Shown here: in pieces, positions 2,291 through 16,686 of the stretch
Position numbering within the stretch: position 1 is the stretch's first letter
How the letters are laid out: each line of letters starts with the position of its first letter
Virus record (IMG/VR): IMGVR_UViG_3300037961_002050
Location: 1 to 22,745 of that record
Direction: 5' to 3' (one strand)
Length of the DNA: 22,745 bases
From: a virus
Program-made: the position numbers and the translations under genes
The notes under the pieces: model-generated
Seen by the model: the letters and a program-made list of their open reading frames with translations, nothing else
Told to the model about the DNA's origin: nothing
Database searches by the model: none

Positions 2291-2854
2291 ATGGCACTCA
2301 CAGCAGAAGTTCTCTTTGTCAACCCTGACTACCTGAAGCGCATCACCCAACTCAACGGGGCGGTTGAGGAAGCGGTCATGGTTCCCGCCATCATTTTGGC
2401 GCAAGACAAGTACCTCCAACAATACCTCGGCACCGATCTCTTGAACAAGCTCAAGAGTGACGTAGCCGGTAGCGGTCCCTCGGGCGTTTATGAGACGCTT
2501 CTGGACGACTACGTCCGCAAGACAACCGCGTGGTGGTCAATGGTCGAAATGTTGCCGAATTTGTACGTCAAATTGGACAACGGAGGGTTGGTGATTCGCA
2601 CGGCAGAGAACACCACTGCCATCGGCCCGGACGACCTGCACCGCGAAATCGAGAACGCACGACAAAATGCACAGTTTTACACCACGCGCATGGTCGAATA
2701 CTTGTGTCACAACCAAACGAGCTTCCCTGAGTACACGTCGAACACTTCGCCCGACATGTTGCCACAACGCACGGCGTACTACCAAAACGGAATGACCATT
2801 AGCATTGGTCACGACGGCGTTGACCCTGATTTGGCTCGGAAGCTCTACGAATGA
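2291..2854 (+). CDS. Head-tail connector (neck) protein, DUF6712-like
   Basis: 187 residues, ATG immediately after the portal stop. It is largely helical, with YLQQYLGTDLLNKL near residue 40 and an aromatic-rich WWSMVEMLP segment near residue 80. This matches the DUF6712-type proteins that follow the portal in many Bacteroidota phages and probably play the gp6/gp15-like adaptor role below the portal. Family assignment is from remembered motifs and from position next to the portal. It shares 4 bases (ATGA) with the next tiny ORF. No other candidate neck adaptor lies between portal and lysis genes. Confidence 0.65.
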   Translation: MALTAEVLFVNPDYLKRITQLNGAVEEAVMVPAIILAQDKYLQQYLGTDLLNKLKSDVAGSGPSGVYETLLDDYVRKTTAWWSMVEMLPNLYVKLDNGGLVIRTAENTTAIGPDDLHREIENARQNAQFYTTRMVEYLCHNQTSFPEYTSNTSPDMLPQRTAYYQNGMTISIGHDGVDPDLARKLYE

Positions 2855-2937
2855 CACGCAAAGAAAATGAGGCGGCCTTGCGTGCGTGGCTTGCCAAACA
2901 AGAGAAGGACAAACAGAAGCCAAAAACACGCAAATGA
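2851..2937 (+). CDS. Hypothetical 28-residue basic peptide
   Basis: A very short ORF (MTRKENEAALRAW..., 28 residues, about one third Lys or Arg). It overlaps the upstream gene by ATGA at 2851-2854 and the downstream gene by ATGA at 2934-2937, so ribosomes could pass from gene to gene through it. This junction style is the norm in this phage and is the main reason to believe the ORF is translated. It is predicted to be helical and charged. It has no recognisable function and may serve mainly as a coupling bridge between neck and lysis genes. Confidence 0.45.
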   Translation: MTRKENEAALRAWLAKQEKDKQKPKTRK

Positions 2938-3137
2938 ACATAGACGGGTTAATAACTTTAGTGCCGGCTTTGCTGGCAATTATTGGTGTTTGGGTGAACT
3001 TCAACGCAGAGGTGGCAAAATTGAAGGGCCGCGTGTACCGTTTAGAGTCCGATCAAAACGAACTCAAGGGTATGTTGAAGGAATGCGTCGAAGGCATCCA
3101 GGAGCTCAAAATTTTGCTTGCCAAAAAAGGTTTCTGA
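2934..3137 (+). CDS. Holin-like / XhlA-like small membrane protein
   Basis: 67 residues from ATG 2934. One N-terminal hydrophobic segment (LITLVPALLAIIGVWV, residues 6-21) is followed by a ~40-residue charged heptad region (KLKGRVYRLESDQNELKGML) that should form a coiled coil. This one-helix-plus-coiled-coil shape is that of XhlA/haemolysin-type proteins that accompany endolysins. The next gene starts one base after its stop and encodes an M15 peptidase, which strengthens a lysis role. It could deliver or anchor the endolysin or permeabilise the membrane; sequence alone does not decide. An in-frame start 48 bases earlier is possible but would overlap the 28-residue ORF more deeply. Confidence 0.6.
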   Translation: MNIDGLITLVPALLAIIGVWVNFNAEVAKLKGRVYRLESDQNELKGMLKECVEGIQELKILLAKKGF

Positions 3138-3494
3138 ATGTATAAGTATTTCAAGATCTCTGAGTTCGACAGCCCCGACGAACCGGGGTCAGGCGAAATG
3201 ATGGAGCCGGCAGTCATTGAAGCGTTGGAGAACGCACGTGACCTTGCCGGTTTCCCGTTTGTAGTGACGAGTGGGGTGCGGACCATCGCACACAACCGAG
3301 CTGTCGGAGGGTCGCCCCGGTCAAGCCATCTTTTAGGCCTCGCGGTTGACCTGCGCGTAGACAACAGCGAACGCCGCTACCTCATGGTTGAGGCATTGCT
3401 CGACGCGGGTTTCAATCGCATTGGAGTGGCCGAGAACTTCATCCATGCCGACATGGACAAAAACAAAAAACCCAACGTACTTTGGACATACTAA
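3138..3494 (+). CDS. M15A-type peptidase (probable endolysin)
   Basis: 118 residues, a complete small M15A domain. The zinc ligands expected for the family are present: His64 and Asp71 in SSHLLGLAVD, and His103 in FIHAD. TSGVRT near residue 44 is the conserved loop before the active site. The family cleaves D-Ala-containing or L-Ala-D-Glu peptide bonds of peptidoglycan. Single-domain M15A proteins next to portals or tail genes in Bacteroidota phages are usually called endolysins, and the adjacent membrane protein fits. No signal peptide is visible, so export would need a holin. The final codons overlap the metallophosphoesterase gene by 13 bases. Confidence 0.85.
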   Translation: MYKYFKISEFDSPDEPGSGEMMEPAVIEALENARDLAGFPFVVTSGVRTIAHNRAVGGSPRSSHLLGLAVDLRVDNSERRYLMVEALLDAGFNRIGVAENFIHADMDKNKKPNVLWTY

Positions 3495-4327
3495 GAAAGA
3501 GCCGCACGGTTCACCACGTTGACCTCGATTTTAAAAAGAGAGGCACCGACAAGAACCTCTTGTTCATCTCGGACGTCCACTACGACAGCGTCAAATGCGA
3601 CCGGTCACTCTTGCACCGCCACCTTGAGGAGGCGCGACGCATCGGGGCCGGCGTTTTTATTTTTGGCGACCTGTTTGACCTCATGCAAGGACGCTTCGAC
3701 CCACGGGGCAACTACTCCGAACTGCGGCCTGAATACAAGTCGTGCACATACGTGGACGAAGTCATACAGGACGTGGGCGAGAAGCTGGCCGAGTACAAGG
3801 ACGTCATCCGGTTCATCTCACGCGGCAACCACGAAACCAATATCGAGAAGCGCATGATGGTTTCGCCCATTGACAGGGTGGCTCAAATCATCAACGCCGC
3901 AGGTGGAAGGGTAGAGACGGGCGGTTATGCCGGCTGGCTTGGGATGACGTGTCATCGTGGTGGCAAAAGTTGCAAGCGTTTCCTCGTACACTACCACCAC
4001 GGGTATGGCGGCAACGCGAAACGCTCAAAGGGTGTACTGAACAACGACCTCGACCTCGCGCAATTCCCTGACGCCGACTTCATTGTTCGCGGCCACGACC
4101 ACAACAAGTGGTATCACCCTGTGACGGTCGATCGCATTAACCTCAAAATGAAGCTCGAACAAAGCACGCGCTACATTATGCGCCTTGGATCGTACAAAAA
4201 ACTCGGGGACCGCTTTGCAGGTTGGGCCACCGAGAAAGGGTTCAATACGCCAACCCTTGGGGGCTGGTGGGTGCGCTTTGTGGAAAATAGGGACGAATAC
4301 CGCGTTGAAGTGAGGGACGCCTCGTAG
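3482..4327 (+). CDS. Calcineurin-like metallophosphoesterase
   Basis: 281 residues if started at TTG 3482. The ordered metal-binding motifs are complete: SDVHYD (Asp31, His33), GDLFD (Asp63, Asp66), RGNHE (Asn116, His117), VHYHH (His170, His172) and RGHDH (His205, His207). This is an intact two-metal phosphoesterase core; members cleave phosphomonoesters, phosphodiesters or DNA ends. The specific substrate cannot be inferred. The start is unusual: no ATG precedes the first motif, and the frame is open back to 3392. TTG 3482, overlapping the peptidase stop, is the simplest choice. The next 164 bases are non-coding and hold terminators and promoters, so this is the last gene of its transcription unit. 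Confidence 0.85.
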   Translation: MDILRKSRTVHHVDLDFKKRGTDKNLLFISDVHYDSVKCDRSLLHRHLEEARRIGAGVFIFGDLFDLMQGRFDPRGNYSELRPEYKSCTYVDEVIQDVGEKLAEYKDVIRFISRGNHETNIEKRMMVSPIDRVAQIINAAGGRVETGGYAGWLGMTCHRGGKSCKRFLVHYHHGYGGNAKRSKGVLNNDLDLAQFPDADFIVRGHDHNKWYHPVTVDRINLKMKLEQSTRYIMRLGSYKKLGDRFAGWATEKGFNTPTLGGWWVRFVENRDEYRVEVRDAS

Positions 4328-4335
4328 TATATTAG
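4305..4335 (+). promoter_or_regulatory. Bacteroidota-type promoter candidate P1
   Basis: TTG at 4305-4307 and TATATTAG at 4328-4335, separated by 20 bases. The Bacteroidota housekeeping promoter is TTG (-33) and TAnnTTTG (-7) about 19 bases apart. The -7 box differs at one fixed position. It lies over the last codons of the phosphoesterase gene and points at a region with no ORF, ending in a terminator within 75 bases. Confidence 0.45.
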
Positions 4336-4338
4336 ACT

Positions 4339-4410
4339 CGGCCATCAGGTGGTCGAATCATTTGTTTTTTCAGTCGAGGAGCCTCCGGAACGCCGGGGGC
4401 TTCTTTTTTT
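4339..4410 (+). ncRNA. Candidate ~70-nt small RNA
   Basis: A transcript from P1 would start near 4340 and end at the T-run finishing at 4410. It would fold as a first hairpin, CGGCCA (4339-4344) with TGGTCG (4350-4355), a U-rich single-stranded linker (TTTGTTTTTT, 4361-4370), and a terminator hairpin. This promoter-hairpin-linker-terminator order is that of a small regulatory RNA. No ORF with a plausible start fits in it. It could equally be a double terminator, because the first hairpin is also followed by U-rich sequence. It matches no RNA family I recognise. Confidence 0.35.
4379..4410 (+). terminator. Strong rho-independent terminator
   Basis: GCCTCCGG (4381-4388) pairs with CCGGGGGC (4393-4400), 8 bp with one T-G pair and an AACG tetraloop; A4380-T4401 can extend it. 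The T-rich tail TTCTTTTTTT runs to 4410. It closes the structural/lysis unit and any RNA started at P1. Confidence 0.85.
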
Positions 4411-4455
4411 GGGCAAAAAATTTTTCGGCTTTTGTTTGCGAAAAGAAATTTGCCC
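4411..4455 (+). promoter_or_regulatory. 45-bp dyad, probable operator
   Basis: Two nested inverted arms are exact. GGGCAAA (4411-4417) pairs with TTTGCCC (4449-4455), and TTTTCG (4422-4427) pairs with CGAAAA (4439-4444). They are separated by matching 4-base gaps and an 11-base centre. The right half of the dyad fills the spacer of promoter P2, and its centre contains the P2 -33 TTG. A dimeric repressor bound here would block P2. The HTH proteins encoded downstream (6591-6845, 6849-7076) are candidate binders; that link is inference. Confidence 0.55.
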
Positions 4456-4465
4456 CCCATATTAG
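4436..4465 (+). promoter_or_regulatory. Bacteroidota-type promoter candidate P2 for the early operon
   Basis: TTG at 4436-4438 (part of TTTG) and CATATTAG at 4458-4465, with a 19-base spacer. The box shares ATATTAG with P1. Predicted initiation near 4470 gives a ~20-base A-rich leader without Shine-Dalgarno before ATG 4492, as is usual in Bacteroidota. Two positions of the -7 consensus do not match. Confidence 0.45.
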
Positions 4466-4491
4466 TGATGTAAAAACAATAAATCACACCG

Positions 4492-4665
4492 ATGACCTAC
4501 GAACAATTTAAGAAAATCGCCCCAAGGGTGAAGGCCTTGCAAGCCAAGCAAGCCGCCAAGACAATCACAGCCGATGAAAGTCAGGAATTGTTTGCCATCA
4601 TGTTTGGCGAGGAGTACATGGCAAGCAACGACAAAGGTTCACGCAAGCAATACGCCGAGCAATGA
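4492..4665 (+). CDS. Hypothetical early protein, 57 residues
   Basis: First gene after P2: ATG 4492, 57 residues (MTYEQFKKIAPRVKALQAKQ...), TGA 4663-4665. It is mostly charged and helical, with an Ala/Lys-rich N-terminal half and an acidic patch (FGEEYM). It has no Cys pairs, membrane segment or recognisable motif. The A-rich upstream sequence, the promoter position and the ATGA overlap with the following gene support that it is real despite its size. Function is unknown. As the promoter-proximal gene it should be expressed early and strongly, so it is a candidate for host takeover or anti-defence, but nothing in the sequence shows this. Confidence 0.6.
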   Translation: MTYEQFKKIAPRVKALQAKQAAKTITADESQELFAIMFGEEYMASNDKGSRKQYAEQ

Positions 4666-4862
4666 GACCTACTCCTGACAACATCAAAGCCATCATTGCG
4701 CAACAAGGCTACGGCGGCATCAAGAAAGCCATTCGCGCAACCTACTGGGACTTGTACAAGGCCGGCTACAACCGCAAGGAAATGAAAGAAACCTTGAGCC
4801 GTGCGTTCGGCACCGAGGACGCATTCATTCGCAACTTCATCTACTTTCAATTCCATGATTGA
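4662..4862 (+). CDS. Hypothetical early protein, 66 residues
   Basis: ATG 4662 overlaps the previous stop by 4 bases. The 66-residue product is basic and aromatic (IKKAIRATYWDLYKAGYNRKEM), with the feel of a small three-helix protein. The segment around residues 20-50 could form a helix-turn-helix-like pair, but I cannot assign a family. The frame is closed by TGA 4860-4862, which overlaps the following zinc-ribbon ORF by 8 bases. No function is proposed. Confidence 0.6.
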   Translation: MRPTPDNIKAIIAQQGYGGIKKAIRATYWDLYKAGYNRKEMKETLSRAFGTEDAFIRNFIYFQFHD

Positions 4863-7076: not shown

Positions 7077-7252
7077 GCGACAAAAAAATCGCACAAGGTT
7101 GGATTGACGGAGGGGGCTACGGCTCCCTCCCACCCAACTCGCACAAGAAAAGCAGTAAATACCACACGGGGCCGCAGAAAACGTACTACAAAGGCGTCAA
7201 AACGTGGGATCCTTGGAAGAAACGTTGGTGGGTTATTCAGACGTACCCATGA
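7073..7252 (+). CDS. Hypothetical basic protein, 59 residues
   Basis: ATG 7073 overlaps the previous stop by ATGA, and TGA 7250-7252 overlaps the methyltransferase ATG by ATGA. The 59-residue product is basic and aromatic, with a glycine-rich N-terminal stretch (GWIDGGGYGSLPP) and a Trp-rich end (WDPWKKRWWVI). It has no family I recognise. It likely bridges translation into the methyltransferase gene. Confidence 0.55.
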   Translation: MSDKKIAQGWIDGGGYGSLPPNSHKKSSKYHTGPQKTYYKGVKTWDPWKKRWWVIQTYP

Positions 7253-8133
7253 ATCACGGGTCATTATTTTCAGGAATCGGAGGTTTCGATCTTGCCGCGC
7301 AATGGGTTGGTTGGACAAACGTATTCAATTGCGAGTGGGAGGACTTTCCCCGCCGCGTACTTAAACATCATTTTCCACATGTCACGCAACACAAAGACAT
7401 CAGGGACCTCGACGCGACAACTTACGCTGGACGAGTTGATATTGTCAGCGGAGGGTTCCCCTGCCAACCATACAGCCTCGCCGGAAAGCGAAAGGGCAAA
7501 GACGACGAGCGCCACCTGTGGCCCGAGATGCTTAGGGTTGTTCGAGAATGCGCCCCGCGCTACGTCGTGGGCGAAAACGTTCGCGGGCTTGTTAGTTGGA
7601 ATGGAGGGATGGTCTTCGAGGAGGTGTGTACTGACTTGGAAGCTCTTGGGTACGCCGTTCAACCGTTCGTACTTCCGGCTTGCGGCGTCGGCGCCCCCCA
7701 CAGACGAGATAGAGTTTGGTTTGTTGCTCACACCGACCACAAGGGAGGAGGTGATGGACACGCAGAAGTTCAAGGAGCGCATGGAGAAGTACGACAACGG
7801 GACAACAGTGCCAAATTTGGCAACGCAAGTCGTCGGACTGCTACCAACGCCGACAGCCGACAACGCCAGCGACAGGACGAAAAATTACGCACAGGGAGGG
7901 ACGCCACTGCCGATGGCGATTCGCGCTCTCTTGCCAACTCCAACGGCGTACGACTGGAACACAGCGAGGAGTCCGGAGAAGTGGGACGAGTTCTCACAGG
8001 CGTTACGCACAAGCCGCTAAAGCAACTTGCTGGGACAAATTTCCAACTGTCGCCCCTGTTTGTGGAGGAGATGATGGGATTCCCGAGAAATTGGACGGCA
8101 TTACCTTTCCAAAGTGGCGACGAGAAAGCATAA
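7249..8133 (+). CDS. dcm: DNA cytosine-C5 methyltransferase, C-terminus frameshifted
   Basis: 294 residues as read from ATG 7249. Motif I FSGIGGFDL (7-15), motif IV GGFPCQPY with catalytic Cys72, motif VI ENV (109-111) and motif VIII GAPHRRDRVWF (148-158) are intact. These bind S-adenosylmethionine and form the covalent cytosine intermediate, giving 5-methylcytosine. Residues ~160-250 would be target recognition. The last ~35 codons read QLSPLFVEEMMGFP, which I associate with the overlapping +1-frame family. The expected Dcm end (ESIKAYGNAIVP, motif X) lies in frame at 8010-8219. A single missing base near 8005-8022 would restore a 323-residue enzyme. Without it the product lacks motif X and may be inactive. 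It probably supplies 5mC to the TET-like oxygenase at 11755. Confidence 0.85.
   Translation: MNHGSLFSGIGGFDLAAQWVGWTNVFNCEWEDFPRRVLKHHFPHVTQHKDIRDLDATTYAGRVDIVSGGFPCQPYSLAGKRKGKDDERHLWPEMLRVVRECAPRYVVGENVRGLVSWNGGMVFEEVCTDLEALGYAVQPFVLPACGVGAPHRRDRVWFVAHTDHKGGGDGHAEVQGAHGEVRQRDNSAKFGNASRRTATNADSRQRQRQDEKLRTGRDATADGDSRSLANSNGVRLEHSEESGEVGRVLTGVTHKPLKQLAGTNFQLSPLFVEEMMGFPRNWTALPFQSGDEKA
7292..8020 (+). other. Long +1-frame ORF inside dcm with periodic TPT motifs
   Basis: The +1 frame of dcm stays open for 242 codons (TTG 7292 to TAA 8018-8020). It contains three spaced motifs: LLLTPTT at 7721, LLPTPTA near 7838 and LLPTPTA near 7928. The same bases encode HTD, TNAD and ANSN in the dcm frame. 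Sequences with repeated LPTPTA followed by MMGFP are familiar to me from databases, usually as unnamed or methyltransferase-annotated proteins. I cannot tell whether this frame is translated or is a by-product of dcm codon constraints. It is listed as an overlapping ORF, not as a confirmed gene. Confidence 0.4.
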
Positions 8134-8219
8134 AGGCCTACGGCAACGCAATTGTACCACACGTGGCCTTGCAGATTTTTAAGGCGATTGAATCTTTGGA
8201 AAATGGAACGAGAATTTAA
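8010..8219 (+). pseudogene. Out-of-frame C-terminal segment of dcm (motif X)
   Basis: In the frame one base back from dcm, the sequence reads from about 8010 through CWDKFPTVAPVC and GGDDGIPEKLDGITFP to KWRRESIKAYGNAIVP, ending at TAA 8217-8219. The GNAIVP block is Dcm motif X, which packs against motif I to complete the cofactor site. The preceding FPTxxPVCGGDDG block is typical of this Bacteroidota methyltransferase group. Its stop overlaps the replication gene start by 17 bases, the same overlap seen at several other junctions here. This supports it as the true ancestral C-terminus, separated by a one-base change. Confidence 0.75.
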
Positions 8220-8892
8220 GGGCGTATGGATTCCAGCCGAAGTGTGGTTGGACACAAAGTTGACGTTGGTCGAAAAGGCATTGCTTGCTGAGATTGATTC
8301 GTTCACTGGTGCGGGCAAGAGCTTTCACAAGTCGAATGAAACAATACAAGTTGAATACGGCATTAGCCGTCCGACAATTTCAAAGGCCATCAAAAAACTT
8401 CAGGGCTTGGGGTACATCACATCGACATCAGACGGTCGCGTTCGTCACTTAGTCGTACAAGCAGACCGAAAAATTCTTACGGGCAGGGGGAAAGATTCTT
8501 TCGGGCAGACCGAAAAAACGTTTCGGGCAGAAGGAAAGAATAGTACCCCTACTAATACATTAGAGAGAACAAGTAAAAAAACAATCAAAGGGAGTAAGGC
8601 ACGCCCACAAAATTTGGACGAGGTTTTGGAAGCGTTCAAAGCCGTCGGCGCCGAGGAAGTAGACGCAATGCAGTTTTACGACTACTACTCGGCCAACGGT
8701 TGGACACAGGGCCGTGGCAAACCCATCAAGGACTGGAAGGCCGCCGCGCGCGGTTGGATTCGTAGAACACAACAATTCAAAGCAAATGAAAGACCTCGCA
8801 AAGGCACAACAACAACTGGCCCATCGGACGGCTCACTCATTGAGCAACATCTCCGCCGCCTCGCGGATGGATCCGGTACAGGCATGGCGTGA
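8203..8892 (+). CDS. DnaD-like replication initiation / replisome organizer protein
   Basis: 229 residues from ATG 8203 (MEREFKGVWIPAEVW). Residues 1-85 form a winged-helix domain (TLVEKALLAEIDSF; recognition helix SRPTISKAIKKL; wing GYITSTSDGRV) of the type at the front of phage replisome organizers. A low-complexity linker (88-135) follows. The C-terminal module FYDYYSANGWTQGRGKPIKDWKAAARGWIRR (158-188, quoted in parts: FYDYYSANGW, KDWKAAARGWIRR) is the conserved tail of DnaD/helix-turn-helix replication proteins. It should melt the origin and recruit helicase. The linker is encoded by four 22-bp DNA iterons, as in lambda O. Confidence 0.75.
   Translation: MEREFKGVWIPAEVWLDTKLTLVEKALLAEIDSFTGAGKSFHKSNETIQVEYGISRPTISKAIKKLQGLGYITSTSDGRVRHLVVQADRKILTGRGKDSFGQTEKTFRAEGKNSTPTNTLERTSKKTIKGSKARPQNLDEVLEAFKAVGAEEVDAMQFYDYYSANGWTQGRGKPIKDWKAAARGWIRRTQQFKANERPRKGTTTTGPSDGSLIEQHLRRLADGSGTGMA
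8455..8542 (+). repeat. Four tandem 22-bp iterons (probable origin of replication)
   Basis: Four head-to-tail copies start at 8455, 8477, 8499 and 8521, exactly 22 bases apart. The core is TTTCGGGCAGA in copies 3 and 4, TTACGGGCAG in copy 2 and GTACAAGCAGA in copy 1. Each core is followed by a GAAA-type A-rich half (for example CCGAAAAA in copies 1 and 3). Because 22 is not a multiple of 3, the encoded peptide does not repeat, so selection must act on the DNA. Two helical turns per unit fits side-by-side initiator binding. Confidence 0.75.
8531..8590 (+). other. AT-rich putative DNA unwinding element
   Basis: Directly after the iterons, 42 of 60 bases are A or T (70 percent), within an otherwise GC-richer operon. 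It is purine-rich on the + strand, with an A7 tract at 8575-8581. Iterons followed by an AT-rich stretch inside the initiator gene is the arrangement of the lambda origin. Confidence 0.5.
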
Positions 8893-9430
8893 AGGCGTTA
8901 ACGTTCAAGCCGCCTACAACAACCCTCAAACGCAAGCGGCGGTAGAAGCTACCTTGATTGCGATGGTCGCGAAGACGCTCCGGTACTTGGACTACTCCCG
9001 AACCATCACAGCCGACCAAGACATCATCGACGCTGTAGAACACTTGCGCCTTGAGTTCCCGGCCATGAAGCTCGAAGAATGGGCAATCATATTCCACCGG
9101 CTGAAGACGGGTCAATATCGTCCCGGTTACGAGCGTTTGAAGTTGCCTGAACTTGTGTCTATATTTCAGCAGTACGAAGGCGAACGCGCCGAGCGTCGCG
9201 AGGAAAATTGGGGTGAGTTAAAAAAGCACACACCAAACAACCTGAACGACGAGCAAGTGCAAGCCTTATACGCCAAATACGCACAACAACGCCGTGAAGC
9301 GATCGAAGCCGCTAAAAAGGAAACCGAAGTCAAGCACGTCCCAACGGACGAGCGAGGCCGGTGGAACTTCATCCCGTACCCGAACACGAAAGACAACGAA
9401 CCCGAGGGGGGCGATGGTCAAAAAGGTTGA
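8786..9430 (+). CDS. DUF6633-like replication accessory protein
   Basis: 214 residues from ATG 8786, overlapping the replication gene by 107 bases. ATG 8867 would cut the overlap to 26 bases and is a good alternative. The central region (TITADQDIIDAVEHLRLEFP, then LEEWAIIFHRLKTGQYRPGYERL, given in parts) matches a helical pattern I recall from DUF6633 proteins of Bacteroidota elements, with the YERL..PELVSIFQQYEGER end. These proteins sit beside DnaD-like genes, so a helicase-loader or accessory role is likely but unproven. A charged C-terminal tail follows. It overlaps the nuclease gene by 17 bases. Confidence 0.5.
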   Translation: MKDLAKAQQQLAHRTAHSLSNISAASRMDPVQAWREGVNVQAAYNNPQTQAAVEATLIAMVAKTLRYLDYSRTITADQDIIDAVEHLRLEFPAMKLEEWAIIFHRLKTGQYRPGYERLKLPELVSIFQQYEGERAERREENWGELKKHTPNNLNDEQVQALYAKYAQQRREAIEAAKKETEVKHVPTDERGRWNFIPYPNTKDNEPEGGDGQKG

Positions 9431-9797
9431 TGCGGTCTTCTCTCAATACGTGCGGCTCCGCGCGACAGACGACACAGGACACGGGGAGTGCTACACGTGC
9501 GGCTCGCGTCGGCATTGGTCAGAGGTTGATGCAGGGCACTTTATGTCTCGGGCTTGTATGTCTACCCGGTGGCACGAGGACAACGTGCAATTCCAGTGCA
9601 AGCGTTGTAATGGATTTAGGTCGGGTGAGCAATTTCTTTTTGCCCGCAACCTCGACGCTGAGTTTGGCGAAGGAAAGGCTGAGGAGTTATTCATCGAGTC
9701 CAAGCAAACGCGCAAGTGGACGCGCGCCGAGCTTGAACAAATGTATCACCACTATAAGCGCCTCGTCGATGAGCTCCGAAGCTCGAAAGGGATTTGA
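9414..9797 (+). CDS. NinG/Rap-like recombination nuclease
   Basis: 127 residues from ATG 9414. Zinc pairs CYTCG (Cys26, Cys29) and CKRCN (Cys62, Cys65) flank the conserved DAGHFMSRACMSTRWHEDN block (His42, His54), the signature of phage NinG proteins. Lambda NinG (Rap) is a structure-specific nuclease that cuts recombination junctions. The usual ~200-residue family is longer at the N-terminus, so this is a compact version. It sits among replication genes, as ninG does in lambdoid phages. It shares 29 bases with the sigma-like gene. Confidence 0.75.
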   Translation: MVKKVDAVFSQYVRLRATDDTGHGECYTCGSRRHWSEVDAGHFMSRACMSTRWHEDNVQFQCKRCNGFRSGEQFLFARNLDAEFGEGKAEELFIESKQTRKWTRAELEQMYHHYKRLVDELRSSKGI

Positions 9798-10257
9798 CGA
9801 GTGGTTCGTTGAGAACTACGACGACCTCGTCGCATCGGCTCGTGCGTTTCACCCGGACGGCTCCGATCTCGTCCACAATACCTACTTGCGAACCGTCGAC
9901 GCGCTTGAGCGCACCGGAAGGCCAATAGGCAAGTACAACGCATACTTCCGACAAGCCATGTGGACAGAGTCAACGCGAGGGGCTTTCAAATCGCTTTACA
10001 CGTACTTAGACGCCCCTCAAATAGAGTTGGCTAACCCCAGCCCCCAGCGCGACCCTTTCGAGGCCGAGAACGCGCTAATTTTGACTCGTCATTTAGCTTG
10101 GTTTGACCGAACTGTGCTTCAGCTTTACCTTGACGGCTACAACCTCCGTGAAGTAGCGAGACAATCAGGCATACCGCACACCACATTGTATCAATCTCTG
10201 CACCGAAGCAAAACAAAACTCCGCAATGTTCATCGTCAGCGCACAAACAAGGGCTAA
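9769..10257 (+). CDS. Sigma-70-family-like (ECF-type) transcription factor
   Basis: 162 residues from ATG 9769. Residues 10-60 resemble region 2 (DLVHNTYLRTVDALERTG, aromatic-rich KYNAYFRQAMW). Residues 125-155 are a clear region-4 helix-turn-helix (DGYNLREVARQSGIPHTTLY, then SKTKLRN). This layout is that of small phage-encoded sigma-like factors that could redirect host polymerase to late promoters. Core-binding residues of region 2 are only partly recognisable, so it may be a degenerate sigma or a late activator. It overlaps the next gene by 32 bases. Confidence 0.6.
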   Translation: MSSEARKGFDEWFVENYDDLVASARAFHPDGSDLVHNTYLRTVDALERTGRPIGKYNAYFRQAMWTESTRGAFKSLYTYLDAPQIELANPSPQRDPFEAENALILTRHLAWFDRTVLQLYLDGYNLREVARQSGIPHTTLYQSLHRSKTKLRNVHRQRTNKG

Positions 10258-10633
10258 CCGTCTCAACATTTGCCGCGAGTGCGAGCACTTTGTTGCATCT
10301 ACCAAAAGTTGTGGACCCCTCGTCACCGAGGCATTCACGGACTCGAAGTTGTGCGGCTGTCACATGCCAACGAAGACGCGCCTCAAGTGGGCCGAGTGTC
10401 CCTTAGGCAAGTGGGATGCGGTCATCACGGCCGAACAATTGGCAGAGGTCGAGGAGTTTCTCGACATTGTAAAAAGCAATCCCAAGTCATTGACAGATGG
10501 CGACCTTGCAGACATATACAATCGTGTGTTAGGCACGACACAACCCGCCTCCAATTGTAGCGCGTGCAACCGCAAAATGGTGCAAACCTTGAAAAAACTG
10601 ATAAATGAAAGCAAACGAAATACCGCCAAGTGA
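10226..10633 (+). CDS. Zinc-binding protein, DUF6171-like N-terminus
   Basis: 135 residues from ATG 10226. The N-terminal half holds CRECEHF (Cys16, Cys19), Cys29, CGC (Cys43, Cys45) and KWAECPLGKW (Cys58). This is the arrangement of a small phage zinc ribbon I know as DUF6171-like (CxxCEH...CGCxMxxKTRL...CPxGKW). The C-terminal half is helical (VEEFLDIVKSNPKSLTDGD) and has a second Cys pair (CSAC). Its role is unknown; it may bridge proteins or bind nucleic acid in the replication/transcription module. Confidence 0.65.
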   Translation: MFIVSAQTRANRLNICRECEHFVASTKSCGPLVTEAFTDSKLCGCHMPTKTRLKWAECPLGKWDAVITAEQLAEVEEFLDIVKSNPKSLTDGDLADIYNRVLGTTQPASNCSACNRKMVQTLKKLINESKRNTAK

Positions 10634-10961
10634 GTCCTTTTACCTTGCTGTGGGCAACCTCGCTCACGAGGGCGGCTACTTCATGAAAAATGATGAAGCC
10701 CTTAATCGTGCTCAGCGAGGCGTCGCCCGACTGGGGATTGACTGGTCTGATGTCGTTGGGCCAGTACGCCGTCGGCATTTGGTCGATGCCCGCAAAATGG
10801 TCAGCTACTTCCTACGTGAGCAGGGGTGGACGTTCAAAGAAATTGGAGAGGTGATGGACCGCGACCATGCAACGGCAATGCACCACACACGCACTTTGTT
10901 TCATTTGATGGAATACGAGAAAGAGACACGACGTCGATACATTGATTTTTGTAGCGCATGA
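10605..10961 (+). CDS. DnaA domain IV-like DNA-binding protein
   Basis: 118 residues from ATG 10605. Residues 55-98 (RRRHLVDARKMVSYFLRE, GWTFKEIGEVM, DRDHATAMHHTR) reproduce the C-terminal DNA-binding domain of DnaA, including the DHxTxxHH-type signature helix. There is no AAA+ domain, so this is DNA-binding only. It could compete with host DnaA, mark the phage origin or act as a regulator. I saw no perfect DnaA box in the window. It overlaps the gene before by 29 bases and the gene after by ATGA. Confidence 0.7.
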   Translation: MKANEIPPSESFYLAVGNLAHEGGYFMKNDEALNRAQRGVARLGIDWSDVVGPVRRRHLVDARKMVSYFLREQGWTFKEIGEVMDRDHATAMHHTRTLFHLMEYEKETRRRYIDFCSA

Positions 10962-11209
10962 CAAACAAACCTTTAACCTTCCGCAAGGCCAAACGCCTTT
11001 TGAATCAATGCGACGACTGGGTGCTGTTCACGTCGAAGAATAACAACGACGACACAGCTAACCTCGAGTGCGCCACCATGACTTCCACGTCATGGGCAAT
11101 CCTCATTGACTTCGCAACCGCAGACGAAAACTTTTACAATGCCCTTGAAACCATCCTCCACACGGCCCGTGACATACGCGAAAACGGCCAATCTGAAGAC
11201 GAATCCTAA
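10958..11209 (+). CDS. Hypothetical protein, 83 residues
   Basis: ATG 10958 (ATGA overlap) starts an 83-residue acidic protein with no recognised family. A central segment (LECATMTSTSWAILIDFAT) looks like two beta-strands and the C-terminus (NALETILHTARDIRENG) like a helix. It overlaps the ParB-like gene by about 41 bases if that gene starts at GTG 11169. Function not assigned. Confidence 0.6.
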   Translation: MTNKPLTFRKAKRLLNQCDDWVLFTSKNNNDDTANLECATMTSTSWAILIDFATADENFYNALETILHTARDIRENGQSEDES

Positions 11210-11771
11210 CAACCCGCGCGCAATTCGCAAGGATCAACTTGACAAGCTCGTCAAGAGCCTGAAGGAATTCCCTGAAATGCTCGAAGCTCGGCCTATTGTC
11301 ATCGACAAAGATGGCGTGGTGCTTGGCGGCAATATGCGTCTACAAGCGGCACAACGCGCCGGCCTCGAAGAAGTGCCTGTGTACGTGCGAGAATGGGACG
11401 AAGCCAAAGACAGTCAATTTGTTGTCAAGGACAATGTCAGTTTTGGTGAGTGGGACTGGGACATGTTGGCAAATGAATGGGAAGTAGACGACCTCAAGGA
11501 CTGGGGTTTGTACGTTCCAAAGTGGGACGACACAAACTTTGAAAGCGACATCGAGGACACAGGCGAATACGACTACCCGGAGGATCTTGTGCCAAACTCT
11601 CAGGTGCGTATGGTTCAATTGTTCATGAACAGCGAAACCGAGCCGGAATTCAAAAAGTGGGAACTGGCTTTGCGTGGCCCGCACGGTACAGACAATCTGA
11701 CCGACACCATCTACGAGGTGGTCAAGAAAGCGTATGAAGACGGATTCGAGCATTATGGCGAAGGTTCATAA
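11169..11771 (+). CDS. ParB-like (ParB/Srx fold) protein
   Basis: 200 residues from GTG 11169; the domain itself begins around 11187, and other starts (ATG 11139) are possible. Residues ~8-80 carry the ParB/Srx pattern: NPNNPRAIRKDQ, ARPIVIDKDG, VLGGNMRLQAAQRAG. The next block (FVVKDNVSFGEWDWDMLANE, WEVDDLKDWGL) is the linker seen in ParB-methyltransferase fusions, but no methyltransferase domain follows; the protein ends in a helical tail. It could bind DNA or a nucleotide and partner with a separate modifying enzyme. It overlaps the TET/JBP-like gene by 17 bases, suggesting a shared task. Confidence 0.7.
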   Translation: MTYAKTANLKTNPNNPRAIRKDQLDKLVKSLKEFPEMLEARPIVIDKDGVVLGGNMRLQAAQRAGLEEVPVYVREWDEAKDSQFVVKDNVSFGEWDWDMLANEWEVDDLKDWGLYVPKWDDTNFESDIEDTGEYDYPEDLVPNSQVRMVQLFMNSETEPEFKKWELALRGPHGTDNLTDTIYEVVKKAYEDGFEHYGEGS

Positions 11772-12651
11772 AGTCCGGCCGCGATTGACGGACGAGCAAA
11801 CCAAAAAGCTCTCCGGGACGTTGTTGACAGACAAGGACTACAACAAGCTATTTACGTCCGACGTTGATGTGTACGACGAGGAAACCGGCCAATGCATTGC
11901 GAAGTTTCGCAAGCGCGTCATACCATCAAACATTGCTGAAGCGGCCTATGAAAACCTTAAGAAGGCCGCCACGCCAACGAACAACAGAGGCACAAGCACA
12001 GGGACTTCAGATGGCAAAGGCAAAGTGTCGCACCACCGCGTGAAGAAGGATGGTACCATTTCAAACTCTACTGGCGCACATACAGCCGTCAACAGTGGCA
12101 TCATCGGTTTTTTTGACAGGAACGCGCGTTACCCATATTGTCGGCAAACGGCCTTCAACATCAATGAATTCGACAAGTTCAAGAAGGCGTACCCTATCAT
12201 CAAATTCGTAGACAGCCAGTACGAGAAACTGATGCCTGATCACTACGCCAAACAAAGGGCCGTGGCAGACAATACCTCAAGTGACTTCACAATTCACAAC
12301 ACGGCGTTCACAACGGTGACGGTCAACAAGAATTGGCAGACAGCCGTACACACTGACAAGGGTGACTTCGCCGAGGGTTTTGGCAACCTCGTTGTGCTTC
12401 GAAAAGGCAGGTACACGGGAGGCTACTTCGTATTGCCCAAATGGGGCGTGGCGTTCGATATGCAGAATTGTGATTTGCTCCTGACTGACGTTCACCAATG
12501 GCACGGCAACACACCAATACACAAAATCGACGAAGATGCAACGCGCGTCTCGCTGGTCATGTACTACCGTGAGAACATGATTCACTGCGGCACGGGAGAG
12601 GAGGAAGCGCAAATTGCCAAGCGGCGTCAAAAGGGAACACGGCTAACGTAA
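11755..12651 (+). CDS. TET/JBP-like 2-oxoglutarate/Fe(II) DNA dioxygenase
   Basis: 298 residues from ATG 11755. The C-terminal half has the double-stranded beta-helix core: AVHTDKGD gives the HxD iron ligands His199 and Asp201; LLTDVHQWHGNTP supplies the distal His (247 or 250); and Arg264 in ATRVSLVMYY fits the 2-oxoglutarate-binding Arg. The order NKNWQTAVHTDKGD, GGYFVLPKWGVAFD, HGNTP matches TET/JBP proteins, which hydroxylate the methyl group of 5mC or thymine in DNA. The N-terminal ~110 residues are extra, with a low-complexity Ser/Thr/Gly part near 75-90. The methyltransferase upstream points to 5mC as substrate; thymine remains possible. Confidence 0.8.
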   Translation: MAKVHKVRPRLTDEQTKKLSGTLLTDKDYNKLFTSDVDVYDEETGQCIAKFRKRVIPSNIAEAAYENLKKAATPTNNRGTSTGTSDGKGKVSHHRVKKDGTISNSTGAHTAVNSGIIGFFDRNARYPYCRQTAFNINEFDKFKKAYPIIKFVDSQYEKLMPDHYAKQRAVADNTSSDFTIHNTAFTTVTVNKNWQTAVHTDKGDFAEGFGNLVVLRKGRYTGGYFVLPKWGVAFDMQNCDLLLTDVHQWHGNTPIHKIDEDATRVSLVMYYRENMIHCGTGEEEAQIAKRRQKGTRLT

Positions 12652-13262
12652 TGTGTGGGGTCGTCGGGTTTTCGTGCGACGCGCCACAAGCCGCGCACTA
12701 CGAGTTGCTCAAACGCATCATGCGTGAAAGCAAGATTCGTGGGTTGCACAGCTTCGGAGTGGCGTACGTCGACGACGGCATCAAGGTCAACAAGGTCCAC
12801 GACCTCGACGAGCTTGACATACCTCAGGCCACGCGCATCATTTTCCACAACCGCTACTCGACAAGCGGGGACTACCTCGACCACGAGAACAACCAACCCT
12901 TGTCAAACAAGTCAACGGCGCTTGTATTTAACGGTGTCCTTGACATGCGTACAAAAGACGAAATGGAAGCCGCGTACAACGTCACTTTGTCGTGCGACAA
13001 TGACGGTGCGCTACTGCTCGAATTGTGCAATGACGACCCCGAGGAAATGTTGCAGTGGACGAAGGAACGCAACGCCAGTTTTGCTGGCTTGGTTTTAAGC
13101 TCGTCAAATGTGCTGACCGCCTTCCGCAATGCCAACCGTCCTTTGTGGCTGGCAACATACCAGGGCGGGCTATATTTCGCTTCGACAAGGGACATTTTCA
13201 TGAGGGCAGAACCGTCGTTGGATCCAATAGAACTCAAACCGGACACCCTCTATGCAGATTAG
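12651..13262 (+). CDS. Class II glutamine amidotransferase
   Basis: 203 residues; ATG shares one base with the previous TAA. The start MCGVVGF gives the N-terminal nucleophile Cys2 after Met removal. RGLHSFGVAY, HNRYSTSGDY (Arg68), ENNQPL, VFNGVLDM (Asn94-Gly95) and CDNDGALLLEL complete the GATase II set as in GlmS and PurF. It would release ammonia from glutamine. There is no synthetase or isomerase domain, so ammonia must go to a partner enzyme. Lying between a DNA dioxygenase and an AGPT-like transferase, it is a likely nitrogen donor for base modification; that is inference. Confidence 0.85.
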   Translation: MCGVVGFSCDAPQAAHYELLKRIMRESKIRGLHSFGVAYVDDGIKVNKVHDLDELDIPQATRIIFHNRYSTSGDYLDHENNQPLSNKSTALVFNGVLDMRTKDEMEAAYNVTLSCDNDGALLLELCNDDPEEMLQWTKERNASFAGLVLSSSNVLTAFRNANRPLWLATYQGGLYFASTRDIFMRAEPSLDPIELKPDTLYAD

Positions 13263-13656
13263 AAAAGCCATAGCCACCGACGCGGACTTCATTAAGAAGA
13301 TTCACAAGCAACACAAGGCACACATTGGTTCGTTCAACCTTTTTTGGAGTTGGGACCACTACCTTGACGGGACAAACAAAAGCAAGTTCTTTGTCATTGA
13401 AGGCGGTGGCTTCATGCGCTACTCGTATTCAAAAATGTACACGGCCTACATCTTGCATGAGATAGGCGTCGACAATGAGACGACACGCAAGGGCGTCGGC
13501 CGAGCATTATTTGAAGCCCTCCCGCGCCCCTTGATGCTCAAGTGCAATGTTGACAACGACCGGGGCAATGCGTTTTACGAAGCAATGGGGATGACCAAAA
13601 TGGGAAAGACGGCTACGAAGAAAGGCGTCGAGCAAAACGTATGGTGGATTACCTGA
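13252..13656 (+). CDS. GNAT-family N-acetyltransferase
   Basis: 134 residues from ATG 13252, overlapping the amidotransferase by 11 bases. Motif A is visible as LHEIGVDNETTRKGVGRALF (RKGVGRA is the acetyl-CoA pyrophosphate loop) and motif B as NDRGNAFYEAMGM. GNAT enzymes move an acetyl group from acetyl-CoA to an amine. In this operon the likely acceptor is an amino group placed on the modified base, as proposed for GNATs in other phage hypermodification clusters. A protein or small-molecule target cannot be ruled out. It overlaps the next gene by 16 bases. Confidence 0.8.
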   Translation: MQIRKAIATDADFIKKIHKQHKAHIGSFNLFWSWDHYLDGTNKSKFFVIEGGGFMRYSYSKMYTAYILHEIGVDNETTRKGVGRALFEALPRPLMLKCNVDNDRGNAFYEAMGMTKMGKTATKKGVEQNVWWIT

Positions 13657-14510
13657 CATACCACGTCGAGTCGTCCAAGGCGAAAGACATCGACCCAAGC
13701 AACGACGCCCTGCGGTATGTCGCAGATCGTTTCGAGCTTAATGTCGAACAACGCTACTGGCTTGCATTCCTTTTTGGCACGTGCTACTCGGCAACAAACG
13801 TCTACTACATCTACAATGAGTTCCCGGACTACGAAAATGTAGACGTCGGTCGACTTCAAAGGTGGTGGGACACGAATCGCGACCGCACATTGTTTCAAAC
13901 TGACCGCCTCCGCGTCAAGACGCAAAACAGGTTCGTCGAAACGTTTGTCAGCTACCGCGACCTGCTCAACGGCATGACGCAAGAAGAATACTTTGAGGGG
14001 CTAAAGCAACCGACGCGACAAAACACGTATGACAACGCCTTCCGTGACTTGTCAGGCATTCGCAACTTCGGGCGCTTCACAATGTTCATTTATCTTGAGA
14101 TGGTCAACGTGTTGACAGGCTTTGATCTCGAGCCAACACACCTTGACCTCGCCAATGCCGAAAGTTGTCGCAACGGCCTCGTGTATCACCTCGGAAAGAT
14201 GGAGCTCGACACACACGGGAAGAAAACAAGGTTGACAAAGAAGCAACTCGGCTACCTTCAATACGAGTTTCAAATGTTGAAGTCACACGTCGGAACTTAC
14301 GACATTGCACACCGCAACATTTGGAACATTGAAACAACCCTGTGCGCCTACAAGAAGTACCGACGCGGCAAGAGGTACGTCGGCTACTACATTGAACGTA
14401 TGCGAAAGGAAATAAACAAGATGGAAGGCAACGTGCCAACGGGCGTTGATTGGTCTGTCCTGTGGGACTTCCGACGCGAAACCTACGACCCGAAATGGCT
14501 CAACGAATAA
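13641..14510 (+). CDS. AGPT-pyrophosphorylase-like protein (HMUDK-helical type)
   Basis: 289 residues from ATG 13641, all-helical. Key stretches are VEQRYWLAFLFGTCYSATNV (35-54), GIRNFGRFTMFIYLEMV (139-155), DLANAESCRNGLVYHLG (169-185) and a basic C-terminal region (YKKYRRGKRYVGYYIERMR). I recognise these as the alpha-glutamyl/putrescinyl thymine pyrophosphorylase group, also seen as the helical domain beside hydroxymethyluracil DNA kinases. The family is proposed to replace the phosphorylated hydroxymethyl of a DNA base with an amine. Immediate overlap (16 bases) with the P-loop DNA kinase is the expected partnership. Confidence 0.7.
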   Translation: MVDYLTYHVESSKAKDIDPSNDALRYVADRFELNVEQRYWLAFLFGTCYSATNVYYIYNEFPDYENVDVGRLQRWWDTNRDRTLFQTDRLRVKTQNRFVETFVSYRDLLNGMTQEEYFEGLKQPTRQNTYDNAFRDLSGIRNFGRFTMFIYLEMVNVLTGFDLEPTHLDLANAESCRNGLVYHLGKMELDTHGKKTRLTKKQLGYLQYEFQMLKSHVGTYDIAHRNIWNIETTLCAYKKYRRGKRYVGYYIERMRKEINKMEGNVPTGVDWSVLWDFRRETYDPKWLNE

Positions 14511-15019
14511 TTGCCATTGGTGGCACGCCCGGAAGCGGGAAGACCACCCTCATGCTCAAGGTTCTCGACAACTTCAAGGGCAAACTACGCACCTTCAGTT
14601 ACAAGAACCTTCGAGGAATGCATAGCAAGGAAGACAACCTCTACATCCTCGGGGTCTATGATGGATCGACATTTAGCGGCACGGACAAACTCGCGATGAA
14701 TGTCTTTCCGCACTTCACGTCGTTTCTGTCAAAGGTGCCCGAGGCCGTAGTATTGTTTGAAGGCAACCGCCTGTTTGTGCCGAAGCTGTTCGACAACCAC
14801 GAGTGCGACATCTTAGTAGTCCGCGCCGACAGCGACCTCATTGAGCAACGGTTTGTCAATCGTGGGAGCAACCAGCCGGAACGTTTCTTGAAGGCGGTGA
14901 AAACCAAGACAGAGCGTATCATTGCAAAGTACCCTTCGACAATCCTACACAACAACAACGAGGAAGACCTCGAAAGTAACACACAACACATTTTGAGCTT
15001 GATTCATGAACAAAACTGA
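14495..15019 (+). CDS. Hydroxymethylpyrimidine DNA kinase-like P-loop protein
   Basis: 174 residues from ATG 14495. Walker A is GGTPGSGKTT (residues 9-18). YILGVYDGSTFSGTDKLAMN and VVLFEGNRLFVPKLF follow in the order I know from the 5-hydroxymethyluracil DNA kinases of phages with hypermodified thymine. The enzyme would phosphorylate the hydroxymethyl group of a base already in DNA, activating it for the AGPT-like transferase encoded just before. With a TET-like enzyme as the source of hydroxymethyl, 5hmC is the most economical substrate, though 5hmU is possible. It overlaps terS by 14 bases. Confidence 0.75.
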   Translation: MAQRIIAIGGTPGSGKTTLMLKVLDNFKGKLRTFSYKNLRGMHSKEDNLYILGVYDGSTFSGTDKLAMNVFPHFTSFLSKVPEAVVLFEGNRLFVPKLFDNHECDILVVRADSDLIEQRFVNRGSNQPERFLKAVKTKTERIIAKYPSTILHNNNEEDLESNTQHILSLIHEQN

Positions 15020-15353
15020 ACAGCATAAAAAAGCGCTGATTGATGCCCTGACCAAATCGCTGGGCATCGTGACGACAGCGTGCAAGCAAGTCGGAGTGGG
15101 GCGCACAACCTACTATCAATGGTTGCGTGAAGACCCTGAATTCAAGAAAGCCGTAGCGGACGTCAAGGAAGTAGCCCTGGACTTTGCCGAAAGCCAATTG
15201 CACAAACAAATCCAAGAGGGCAATACGACGGCGACAATTTTCTATTTGAAGACCCAAGGCAAAGCGCGTGGCTATGTCGAGCGTCAAGAGATCGAAGTGG
15301 CTGAGAAGAAGCCGCTGTCATGGTTTGGAAACGAAAACTCAACAACGACATGA
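15006..15353 (+). CDS. Terminase small subunit-like protein
   Basis: 115 residues from ATG 15006. Residues 18-45 (LGIVTTACKQVGVGRTTYYQ, WLREDPEF) form the HTH of small terminase subunits of the phBC6A51-like type. A helical stretch (AESQLHKQIQEGNTTATIFY) and a Trp-containing tail (KPLSWFGN) follow. It should bind the packaging site and activate the large subunit, encoded 176 bases downstream. A short ORF lies between them. The overlap with the kinase gene places packaging in the same transcription unit as DNA modification. Confidence 0.7.
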   Translation: MNKTEQHKKALIDALTKSLGIVTTACKQVGVGRTTYYQWLREDPEFKKAVADVKEVALDFAESQLHKQIQEGNTTATIFYLKTQGKARGYVERQEIEVAEKKPLSWFGNENSTTT

Positions 15354-15532
15354 AGTACACAATCAACACAACCGTCCGCAACATTGCGGAGAACGGCACG
15401 GAACAGGAGCGCACCTTGTACCAAGTAATTGGCACAGACAGGGAAGGCAATGCTTCGATCGTGGGCAATTACGACACAGAGGAAGGAGCTCAAGAAGTCG
15501 TCAGAGAACTTGAGGCGCTCGACGAAGATTGA
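15350..15532 (+). CDS. Hypothetical protein, 60 residues
   Basis: ATG 15350 overlaps the terS stop by ATGA; an in-frame ATG at 15320 would overlap terS more deeply. The product (60 residues) looks like a small three-stranded beta plus helix fold (TLYQVIGTDREGNASIVGNY, EEGAQEVVRELEAL). It is acidic at the C-terminus. It lies between terminase genes and its stop overlaps the terL TTG. No function assigned. Confidence 0.55.
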   Translation: MKYTINTTVRNIAENGTEQERTLYQVIGTDREGNASIVGNYDTEEGAQEVVRELEALDED

Positions 15533-16686
15533 GACAGGCGGCGACATATTACCACGTCAAAGAGTCGCCAGCCAAAATACAAGTCCACCAAGGGGGCACG
15601 CGTAGCGGCAAGACGTTCTCAATCCTTACGGCGCTCATTGAGTTGTGCCACCACAACGAGAATGCGGGGGCCGTCATCACAATCGCGCGCAAAACTTTCC
15701 CGGCAATACGTGCGTCGGTCATGCGGGACTTCTTCACCATCCTTGAACGGGAAGGCATCTACAACGTCGCGAACCACAACAAAAGCGAGGCGACATACAT
15801 CCTGTTTGGCAACCTCGTCGAGTTCATTAGCATCGACCAGCCGCAAAAGGTGCGCGGGCGCAAGCGTGACATTCTATTTGTCAACGAGGCCAACGAGCTT
15901 AACCTTGAGGACTGGCGGCAACTCATCCTGCGGACAACGGGTCGCATCTTGATTGACTACAACCCTTCCGACGAGTTCCATTGGATTTACGACGAGGTGA
16001 TTCCGCGTGAGGACGCCGACTTCTACCAAACAACATACAAGGACAACCCGCATTTGCCGGAAGCGGTCGTTCAAGAGATTGAACGCCTACAAGAGGCCGA
16101 CCCGGACTACTGGAAAGTGTACGGCCTCGGTGAGCGTGGTGTTAGCCGCGCAACAATTCTTACCCATTGGAAGGAATTCGACCAGATCCCGCCGGAGTAC
16201 AAGTTGCTGAACATTGGCCTTGACTTCGGCTACACTAACGACCCTACGGCCATTGTCAAGGTCTACACCGACGGCCACGGCTTCATCTTGGACGAGGTGT
16301 GCTACGCCACCGGCCTGACCAATTCAGCCATCTCGCAAACCTTACGCGACGCCGAGGTGGGACGAGGCATGATGATTGTGGCTGACAGCGCCGAACCAAA
16401 AAGTATAGATGAGATTCACGGCCACGGGTTCAACGTCCACCCGGCAAGAAAGGGAAGGGACTCGGTGCGTGCCGGCTTGGACTTCCTACGCTCCCGACCA
16501 TTAGGTATCACGTCGCGTAGCGTAAACGGCATTAAGGAACTCCGCAACTATAAGTGGAAGGAAGACAAGAACGGGCGTCAACTCAACGAACCGGTCGACG
16601 CTTTCAACCACTTCATTGACGCGAGCCGGTATGCCATAACGCACACGCAGACCAACCCCAACTTCGGTAAGTACGCTCTCGGGTAA
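15529..16686 (+). CDS. terL: Terminase large subunit
   Basis: 385 residues from TTG 15529, which overlaps the previous TGA. Walker A is GGTRSGKT (22-29), the Walker B region is DILFVNEANEL (~114-124) and motif III/C follows (TTGRILIDYNP). The nuclease domain begins at LNIGLDFGYTNDPTA, with catalytic Asp in LDFG and a late acidic pair in DAFNHFIDASRYA. The ATPase pumps DNA into the capsid and the nuclease cuts concatemers. The length is typical for compact Bacteroidota phage TerL. It lies ~13 kb downstream of the portal rather than next to it. Confidence 0.9.
   Translation: MRQAATYYHVKESPAKIQVHQGGTRSGKTFSILTALIELCHHNENAGAVITIARKTFPAIRASVMRDFFTILEREGIYNVANHNKSEATYILFGNLVEFISIDQPQKVRGRKRDILFVNEANELNLEDWRQLILRTTGRILIDYNPSDEFHWIYDEVIPREDADFYQTTYKDNPHLPEAVVQEIERLQEADPDYWKVYGLGERGVSRATILTHWKEFDQIPPEYKLLNIGLDFGYTNDPTAIVKVYTDGHGFILDEVCYATGLTNSAISQTLRDAEVGRGMMIVADSAEPKSIDEIHGHGFNVHPARKGRDSVRAGLDFLRSRPLGITSRSVNGIKELRNYKWKEDKNGRQLNEPVDAFNHFIDASRYAITHTQTNPNFGKYALG

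Follow-up and report, generated by a model that had tools for sequence, protein, structure and literature searches.

The window analyzed here, i.e., the entire 22,745 bases of IMG/VR record IMGVR_UViG_3300037961_002050, comes from a marine phage and carries a run of genes that is likely to form a self-contained cassette for hypermodifying thymine in already replicated phage DNA by means of a TET/JBP dioxygenase, a P-loop kinase and an amino acid:DNA transferase (ADDT). That these genes constitute an oxygenase-kinase-ADDT DNA modification cassette is, in our judgment, close to certain. Genes for a ParB-N domain protein, the TET/JBP enzyme, a stand-alone glutamine amidotransferase (GATase), a GNAT-family acetyltransferase, the ADDT and the kinase lie directly 5′ of the terminase genes and overlap end to end, with every adjacent pair from ParB through the terminase small subunit overlapping (Table 1). 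Overlaps of this kind had been pointed out in an original prediction, made from the bare sequence, that proposed an oxygenase-kinase-AGPT-type route to hypermodified cytosine. The same gene order was seen again in dozens of viral contigs, and the arrangement is therefore not a product of chance. Since the record has no overlap between its ends, the phage genome is probably incomplete.

Known thymidine hypermodification pathways obtain their hydroxymethyl group from a dUMP hydroxymethylase that acts before replication. In the pathway we propose, the TET/JBP enzyme would stand in for this hydroxymethylase and hydroxylate the methyl group of selected thymines to 5-hydroxymethyluracil (5hmU) in a JBP1/2-like reaction; the P-loop kinase would phosphorylate the hydroxymethyl group, the ADDT would swap the phosphate for a nitrogen nucleophile, the GATase would provide the nitrogen from glutamine to give 5-aminomethyl-deoxyuridine (5-aminomethyl-dU), and the GNAT would possibly acetylate the amine. 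The modified DNA may be resistant to host nucleases.

Oxygenase, transferase and kinase

The window TET displays the structural signature of the TET/JBP family, namely a double-stranded β-helix fold, an HxD...H iron triad and an arginine for 2-oxoglutarate, with H199, D201, H250 and R264 invariant both in an alignment of 31 sequences and throughout a larger collection of 132 TETs. Its AlphaFold model (mean predicted local distance difference test [pLDDT] of 89.4) gave NgTET1 as the top fold match (7.6e-13), followed by TET2, CcTET and CMD1, so that the TET/JBP-like dioxygenase originally proposed for the gene at 11755 was borne out by profile, catalytic residues and predicted fold alike. The enzyme is predicted to oxidize a 5-methylpyrimidine in DNA. 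The PDB comparisons for TET and ADDT relied on profiles and predicted folds; sequence searches of the PDB with a single TET or a single ADDT protein as query returned no useful match.

The family profile of the ADDT, PF18724, was matched by 26 of 27 family members. Its predicted model (pLDDT of 95.9) had three significant fold matches in the PDB, all of them entries for PaMx11 gp46 (including 8z2n/8z2m; template modeling score of about 0.6 to 8z2n), the 5-phosphomethyl-deoxyuridine (5-PmdU) glycinyltransferase, or PUGT, whose crystal structure these entries hold. A profile search of the PDB found 8z2m and 25qc, both of which contain the motif ETxLCxxK, and ETxLC occurs in 91/91 members of the ADDT family. 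By sequence profile and all-helical fold, the product of 13641-14510 thus belongs with ADDT/PUGT, as its earlier AGPT-like label implied, and it would be predicted to transfer an amino acid or nitrogen group to phosphorylated hydroxymethyl-dU in DNA.

The kinase scored 25.9 bits against PF18751 (Ploopntkinase3), below the cut-off of 27, while 13 of 29 kinase relatives matched this profile at E <= 0.001. Within the family, the P-loop (87/87), EG[DNA]R (87/87) and FxGTDxL (78/87) motifs are conserved, and the P-loop, GTD and EGxR motifs are common to the window kinase and actinophage kinases scoring 5e-58 and 2.8e-73 against Ploopntkinase3. The window protein corresponds to the annotated 5-hmU DNA kinase of Gordonia phage Wooper; a PDB sequence search with the kinase gave generic P-loop matches only. 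We regard 14495-15019 as the gene of a probable hydroxymethyl-pyrimidine DNA kinase, a reading of the original prediction that its motifs and the matches of its relatives uphold and that its own profile score falls short of. In one group of loci (L068-L081, e.g., L074, 6902-9649), ParB is followed by a short P-loop protein of another type and then by GATase, ADDT and TET, so that a second P-loop family seems to have taken the place of the kinase.

In public records, TET/JBP proteins (mycobacteriophage gene 2 [e.g., NC_011044, 776-1744; our locus L236], DLP6 and Cr30) bear the names queuine tRNA-ribosyltransferase or SNF2 repair protein, and the kinase is listed under terminase small subunit or adenylate kinase. 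Because both proteins are misannotated, the system is hidden in these records.

Table 1. Cassette genes and flanking genes of the window, with the basis of each assignment
Feature	Position	Strand	Basis
C5-cytosine DNA methyltransferase, 294 amino acids; probably accessory	7249..8133	+	PF00145 7e-43; phrog_363 8.8e-71; core motifs
ParB-N domain protein, start approximate	11106..11771	+	PF02195 5.9e-8
TET/JBP Fe(II)/2-oxoglutarate dioxygenase, 298 amino acids	11755..12651	+	PF12851 2.6e-29
Stand-alone class II (Ntn) glutamine amidotransferase (GATase_6)	12651..13262	+	PF13522 1.3e-9
GNAT-family N-acetyltransferase	13252..13656	+	Acetyltransf_7 6.9e-6, 0.2 bits under cut-off
Amino acid:DNA transferase (ADDT/aGPT-like), 289 amino acids	13641..14510	+	PF18724 2e-18
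P-loop kinase, probable hydroxymethyl-pyrimidine DNA kinase, 174 amino acids	14495..15019	+	near PF18751 Ploopntkinase3
Terminase small subunit, outside pathway; overlaps kinase gene	15006..15353	+	phrog_309 2e-12

Putative nitrogen supply and tailoring across related loci

Searches of IMG/VR with ADDT and TET yielded well over a hundred relatives, from which we assembled 86 loci after removal of duplicate TETs, each with enough downstream sequence to judge. ADDT was present in 55 of these 86 TET loci, and the kinase accompanied it in 54 of the 55, in keeping with the oxygenase-kinase-AGPT-type succession first proposed. Among the 55 ADDT loci, 44 contained the GATase and 5 a flavin enzyme, with none containing both; were the two independent, the chance of zero overlap would be 1.3e-4, a figure that is optimistic because the loci are related. 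GATase and flavin-dependent lyase are mutually exclusive in ADDT loci, and a PLP-type (pyridoxal phosphate) enzyme takes their place in two loci.

The genes named in the original prediction were real, but it had left out the GATase, the candidate nitrogen donor. The window protein has the residues of a class II glutamine amidotransferase (Cys2, R68, N94-G95 and D116), and in its family all 80 members keep the Arg loop and NG motif, with the N-terminal Cys present in 77 of them. In locus L090, whose TET is 70% identical to that of the window, the cassette has no GATase and holds in its stead a protein matching the PaMx11-type flavin-dependent lyases 8z2o/8z79 (8e-8). Kinase, PUGT and flavin-dependent lyase of PaMx11 reportedly turn 5hmdU into 5-aminomethyl-dU (Wen 2024, cited in PMC11946847); the sister cassettes with a lyase hold this known enzyme order and therefore point toward thymine. 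The GATase would then fill the role that glycine and the flavin-dependent lyase have in PaMx11 and presumably in the sister cassettes.

We rate it just short of an even chance that the GATase is the ammonia donor, and we know of no hypermodified DNA base that takes its nitrogen directly from glutamine. This donor step is the least certain of the pathway, since the GATase may have a different task: the ADDT would add a whole amino acid (e.g., glutamate or glutamine) to the thymine-derived base, and the amidotransferase would trim or remodel this adduct as an amidohydrolase. Such a course, which differs from the proposed pathway at its third and fourth steps and is no wholesale alternative, would suit the naming of ADDT relatives for amino-acid transfer and the glycinyltransferase activity of PUGT, as well as the fact that stand-alone class II amidotransferase domains can be hydrolases (EgtC). 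However, cassettes lacking the amidotransferase have the lyase, whose product in PaMx11 is an amine, and we consider the adduct course somewhat unlikely. GNAT occurred in 29 of the 86 loci, with the GATase alongside in 29/29, and is the probable last step of the pathway. Tentatively, and with rather less assurance than for the donor step, we suggest that phage JBP-like thymine hydroxylases start thymidine hypermodification on completed DNA and that (acetyl)aminomethyluracil is the product of the marine branch, with glutamine as the direct source of its nitrogen.

Arthrobacter phage Ottawa (L172) carries genes for a carboxylate-amine ligase and a glutamine amidotransferase (1607-3582) ~4-6 kb upstream of its TET-kinase pair, perhaps an analogous nitrogen supply.

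Thymine or cytosine as the modified base

Thymine is quite likely the modified base. We found neither a conserved methyltransferase nor a hydroxymethylase among the cassette genomes, and thymine is therefore the one base that the cassette could modify without help from an additional gene. PF00303, the profile of thymidylate-synthase-type enzymes including dUMP hydroxymethylase, had no match in the window, as the original prediction had noted in naming TET the hydroxymethyl source, or in any cassette record searched. It matched in 1 of 98 viral records (G046) and 1 of 15 cultured TET phages (Caulobacter phage Cr30), both of which have a TET without an adjacent ADDT. The dUMP hydroxymethylase typical of thymidine hypermodification systems was thus not found here, and TET is proposed as its substitute. 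In 14 control genomes, the PF00145 search was positive in 10 and the PF00303 search in 9.

As for the C5-methyltransferase, PF00145 was matched in 4 of the 97 other related viral records from IMG/VR, each time by a small open frame of 220-231 amino acids, and in none of the 15 cultured TET phages. The 97 records include many fragments, and nine cassette contigs with overlapping ends therefore provide a stronger test: in these apparently complete genomes only TET and ADDT occur in 9/9, ParB and the kinase occur in 8/9 and the GATase in 7/9, and no other gene was common enough among them to qualify as an overlooked methyltransferase. A motif scan and phmmer search of the long contigs likewise revealed no further full-length C5-methyltransferase. 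At the syntenic site of two close relatives, L168 and L169, whose neighboring proteins are mostly 85-96% identical to those of the window, the gene is absent, and its flanking genes lie 410 bp apart in L169 versus 1352 bp in the window. The C5-methyltransferase is present in the window only as a non-conserved gene; it is probably an accessory insertion and not part of the pathway.

Several points weigh against thymine and the proposed pathway. To our knowledge, a GATase is part of no characterized thymidine pathway, and characterized phage TETs reportedly oxidize 5-methylcytosine (5mC; Burke 2021, cited in PMC12730594). The window genome encodes an intact C5-methyltransferase, with the catalytic Cys72 of the original prediction and the full set of motifs (FSGIGG, PCQ, ENV, HRRDR and MGFP), and a small PF00145-like protein occurs in 2 of the 9 apparently complete genomes. 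At the position of D204, three residues after the Fe-ligand Asp, 105 of the 132 TETs have Asp and the other 27 have Asn; the window residue agrees with NgTet1 Asp234 and corresponds to TET2 Asn1387, both of which contact the flipped 5mC (PMC4224472), and it is compatible with cytosine. As a discriminator between thymine and cytosine, this pocket residue was set aside: the TET pocket does not settle the base because Asp and Asn each occur in 5mC enzymes (PMC4224472).

A cytosine route could be drawn up in which a phage or host C5-methyltransferase makes 5mC, TET converts it to 5-hydroxymethylcytosine, and kinase, ADDT, GATase and GNAT lead on to (acetyl)aminomethyl cytosine. It would explain the intact methyltransferase in the same genome, the Asp at the position of NgTet1 Asp234 and the closeness of the TET fold to the 5mC enzymes NgTET1 and TET2, of which NgTET1 also has minor activity on T. 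Yet the methyltransferase is missing in nearly all relatives (in L168 and L169 from the very site that it occupies in the window), in most of the apparently complete cassette genomes and in 15/15 cultured TET phages. In view of the PF00145 and motif searches and of the comparison of syntenic sites, the route lost its standing as the best explanation and now appears improbable. The cytosine base of the original prediction is accordingly not supported: the C5-methyltransferase lies outside the cassette, and the closest solved relatives of ADDT and lyase come from the 5-PmdU pathway of PaMx11.

That unrelated moron genes merely sit side by side, with the kinase serving the terminase, would accord with the kinase lying 5′ of the terminase genes and being called terminase small subunit in some databases (phrog_800), but it is highly improbable, given that a separate terminase small subunit follows the kinase in the window, that the kinase occurs in nearly all ADDT loci and that ADDT is missing from 19/19 TET-glycosyltransferase loci.

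Known systems and neighboring findings

The TET-ADDT-kinase combination is already known from cultured actinophages. The kinase/AGPT branch, held to be unusual in the original prediction, is present in Gordonia, Rhodococcus and Mycobacterium phages, and the TET-aGPT-kinase architecture of Rhodococcus phage Tonitrus was published in 2025 as thymidine hypermodification (PMC11955845). In Wooper, Tonitrus and Phelemich, as in the window, the genes for ParB, TET/JBP, ADDT and the P-loop kinase form a single run, which in Wooper and Phelemich lies near the terminase; ParB stands 5′ of TET in actinophages and most cassettes. Identity between the window TET and actinophage TETs is 24-29%. The actinophage operons lack a C5-methyltransferase and a hydroxymethylase, and a flavin-enzyme-like or uncharacterized gene occupies the place of the marine GATase and GNAT. 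Specifically, Mycobacterium phage Phelemich has the order ParB, TET, ADDT (2e-21), a lyase-like flavin enzyme weakly similar to PaMx11-type lyases (5.7e-4), Ploopntkinase3 (2.8e-73) and terminase, with neither PF00145 nor PF00303 in its genome. Gene 5 of Gordonia phage LittleMunchkin, which has the same role as the Phelemich flavin gene, had no relevant match in the PDB.

The PaMx11 system shares with the window the ADDT fold and a kinase acting before the transferase, and its lyase also occurs in the sister cassettes; it differs in taking its hydroxymethyl group from a dUMP hydroxymethylase before replication (compare PMC11946847), whereas TET acting on DNA is the sole visible source in the window. 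Burke-type cytosine TET systems likewise have a phage-encoded TET/JBP oxygenase; they work with C5-methyltransferases and often glycosyltransferases (summarized in PMC12730594), neither of which is a member of the window cassette. In kinetoplastids, JBP1/JBP2 are TET/JBP enzymes with proposed in-DNA thymine hydroxylation (PMC11065753). JBP feeds a glucosyltransferase to form base J, while the window cassette continues with kinase and ADDT. TET/JBP-generated hydroxymethylpyrimidines are said to have been predicted as a start for further modification by Iyer et al. in 2013.

New here are the GATase-GNAT variant, the breadth of the system in uncultured phages, the exclusion pattern and the structural link to PUGT, together with the evidence for thymine and against a required methyltransferase. 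If the proposed pathway is true, a bacterial-virus TET/JBP oxidizes thymine in DNA, as would be expected were eukaryotic JBP/TET phage-derived; thymidine hypermodification would have a second way to begin, one that can be placed after replication; and glutamine-fed amination of DNA would be indicated. Relatives of the cassette grow on Mycobacterium smegmatis and Gordonia, which makes the question of the base accessible in culture.

The portal (596-2290) and large terminase (15529-16686) of the window are 33% and 29% identical to those of Nonlabens phage P12024L, and the large terminase has its nearest counterparts in Bacteroides phages (about 40%); because of these relationships, the host is probably in Bacteroidota. 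Among the 86 loci, a glycosyltransferase occurred in 19 TET loci, with ADDT in 0/19. TET lies beside a TET-associated glycosyltransferase (PF20691) in P12024L (L128, 16409-18037; 4e-21) and in Arthrobacter phage Prairie (L173, 7692-9376; just under the cut-off); both genomes are without PF00145, and the pairs are candidates for base-J-like glycosylated 5hmU in phages. Elsewhere, TET adjoins an FkbM-type methyltransferase (L129 [HTVC112P], 7599-9195; L217-L220; L240 [MED4-184], 3255-4738), a pairing that suggests a further branch in which the hydroxymethyl base is methylated.

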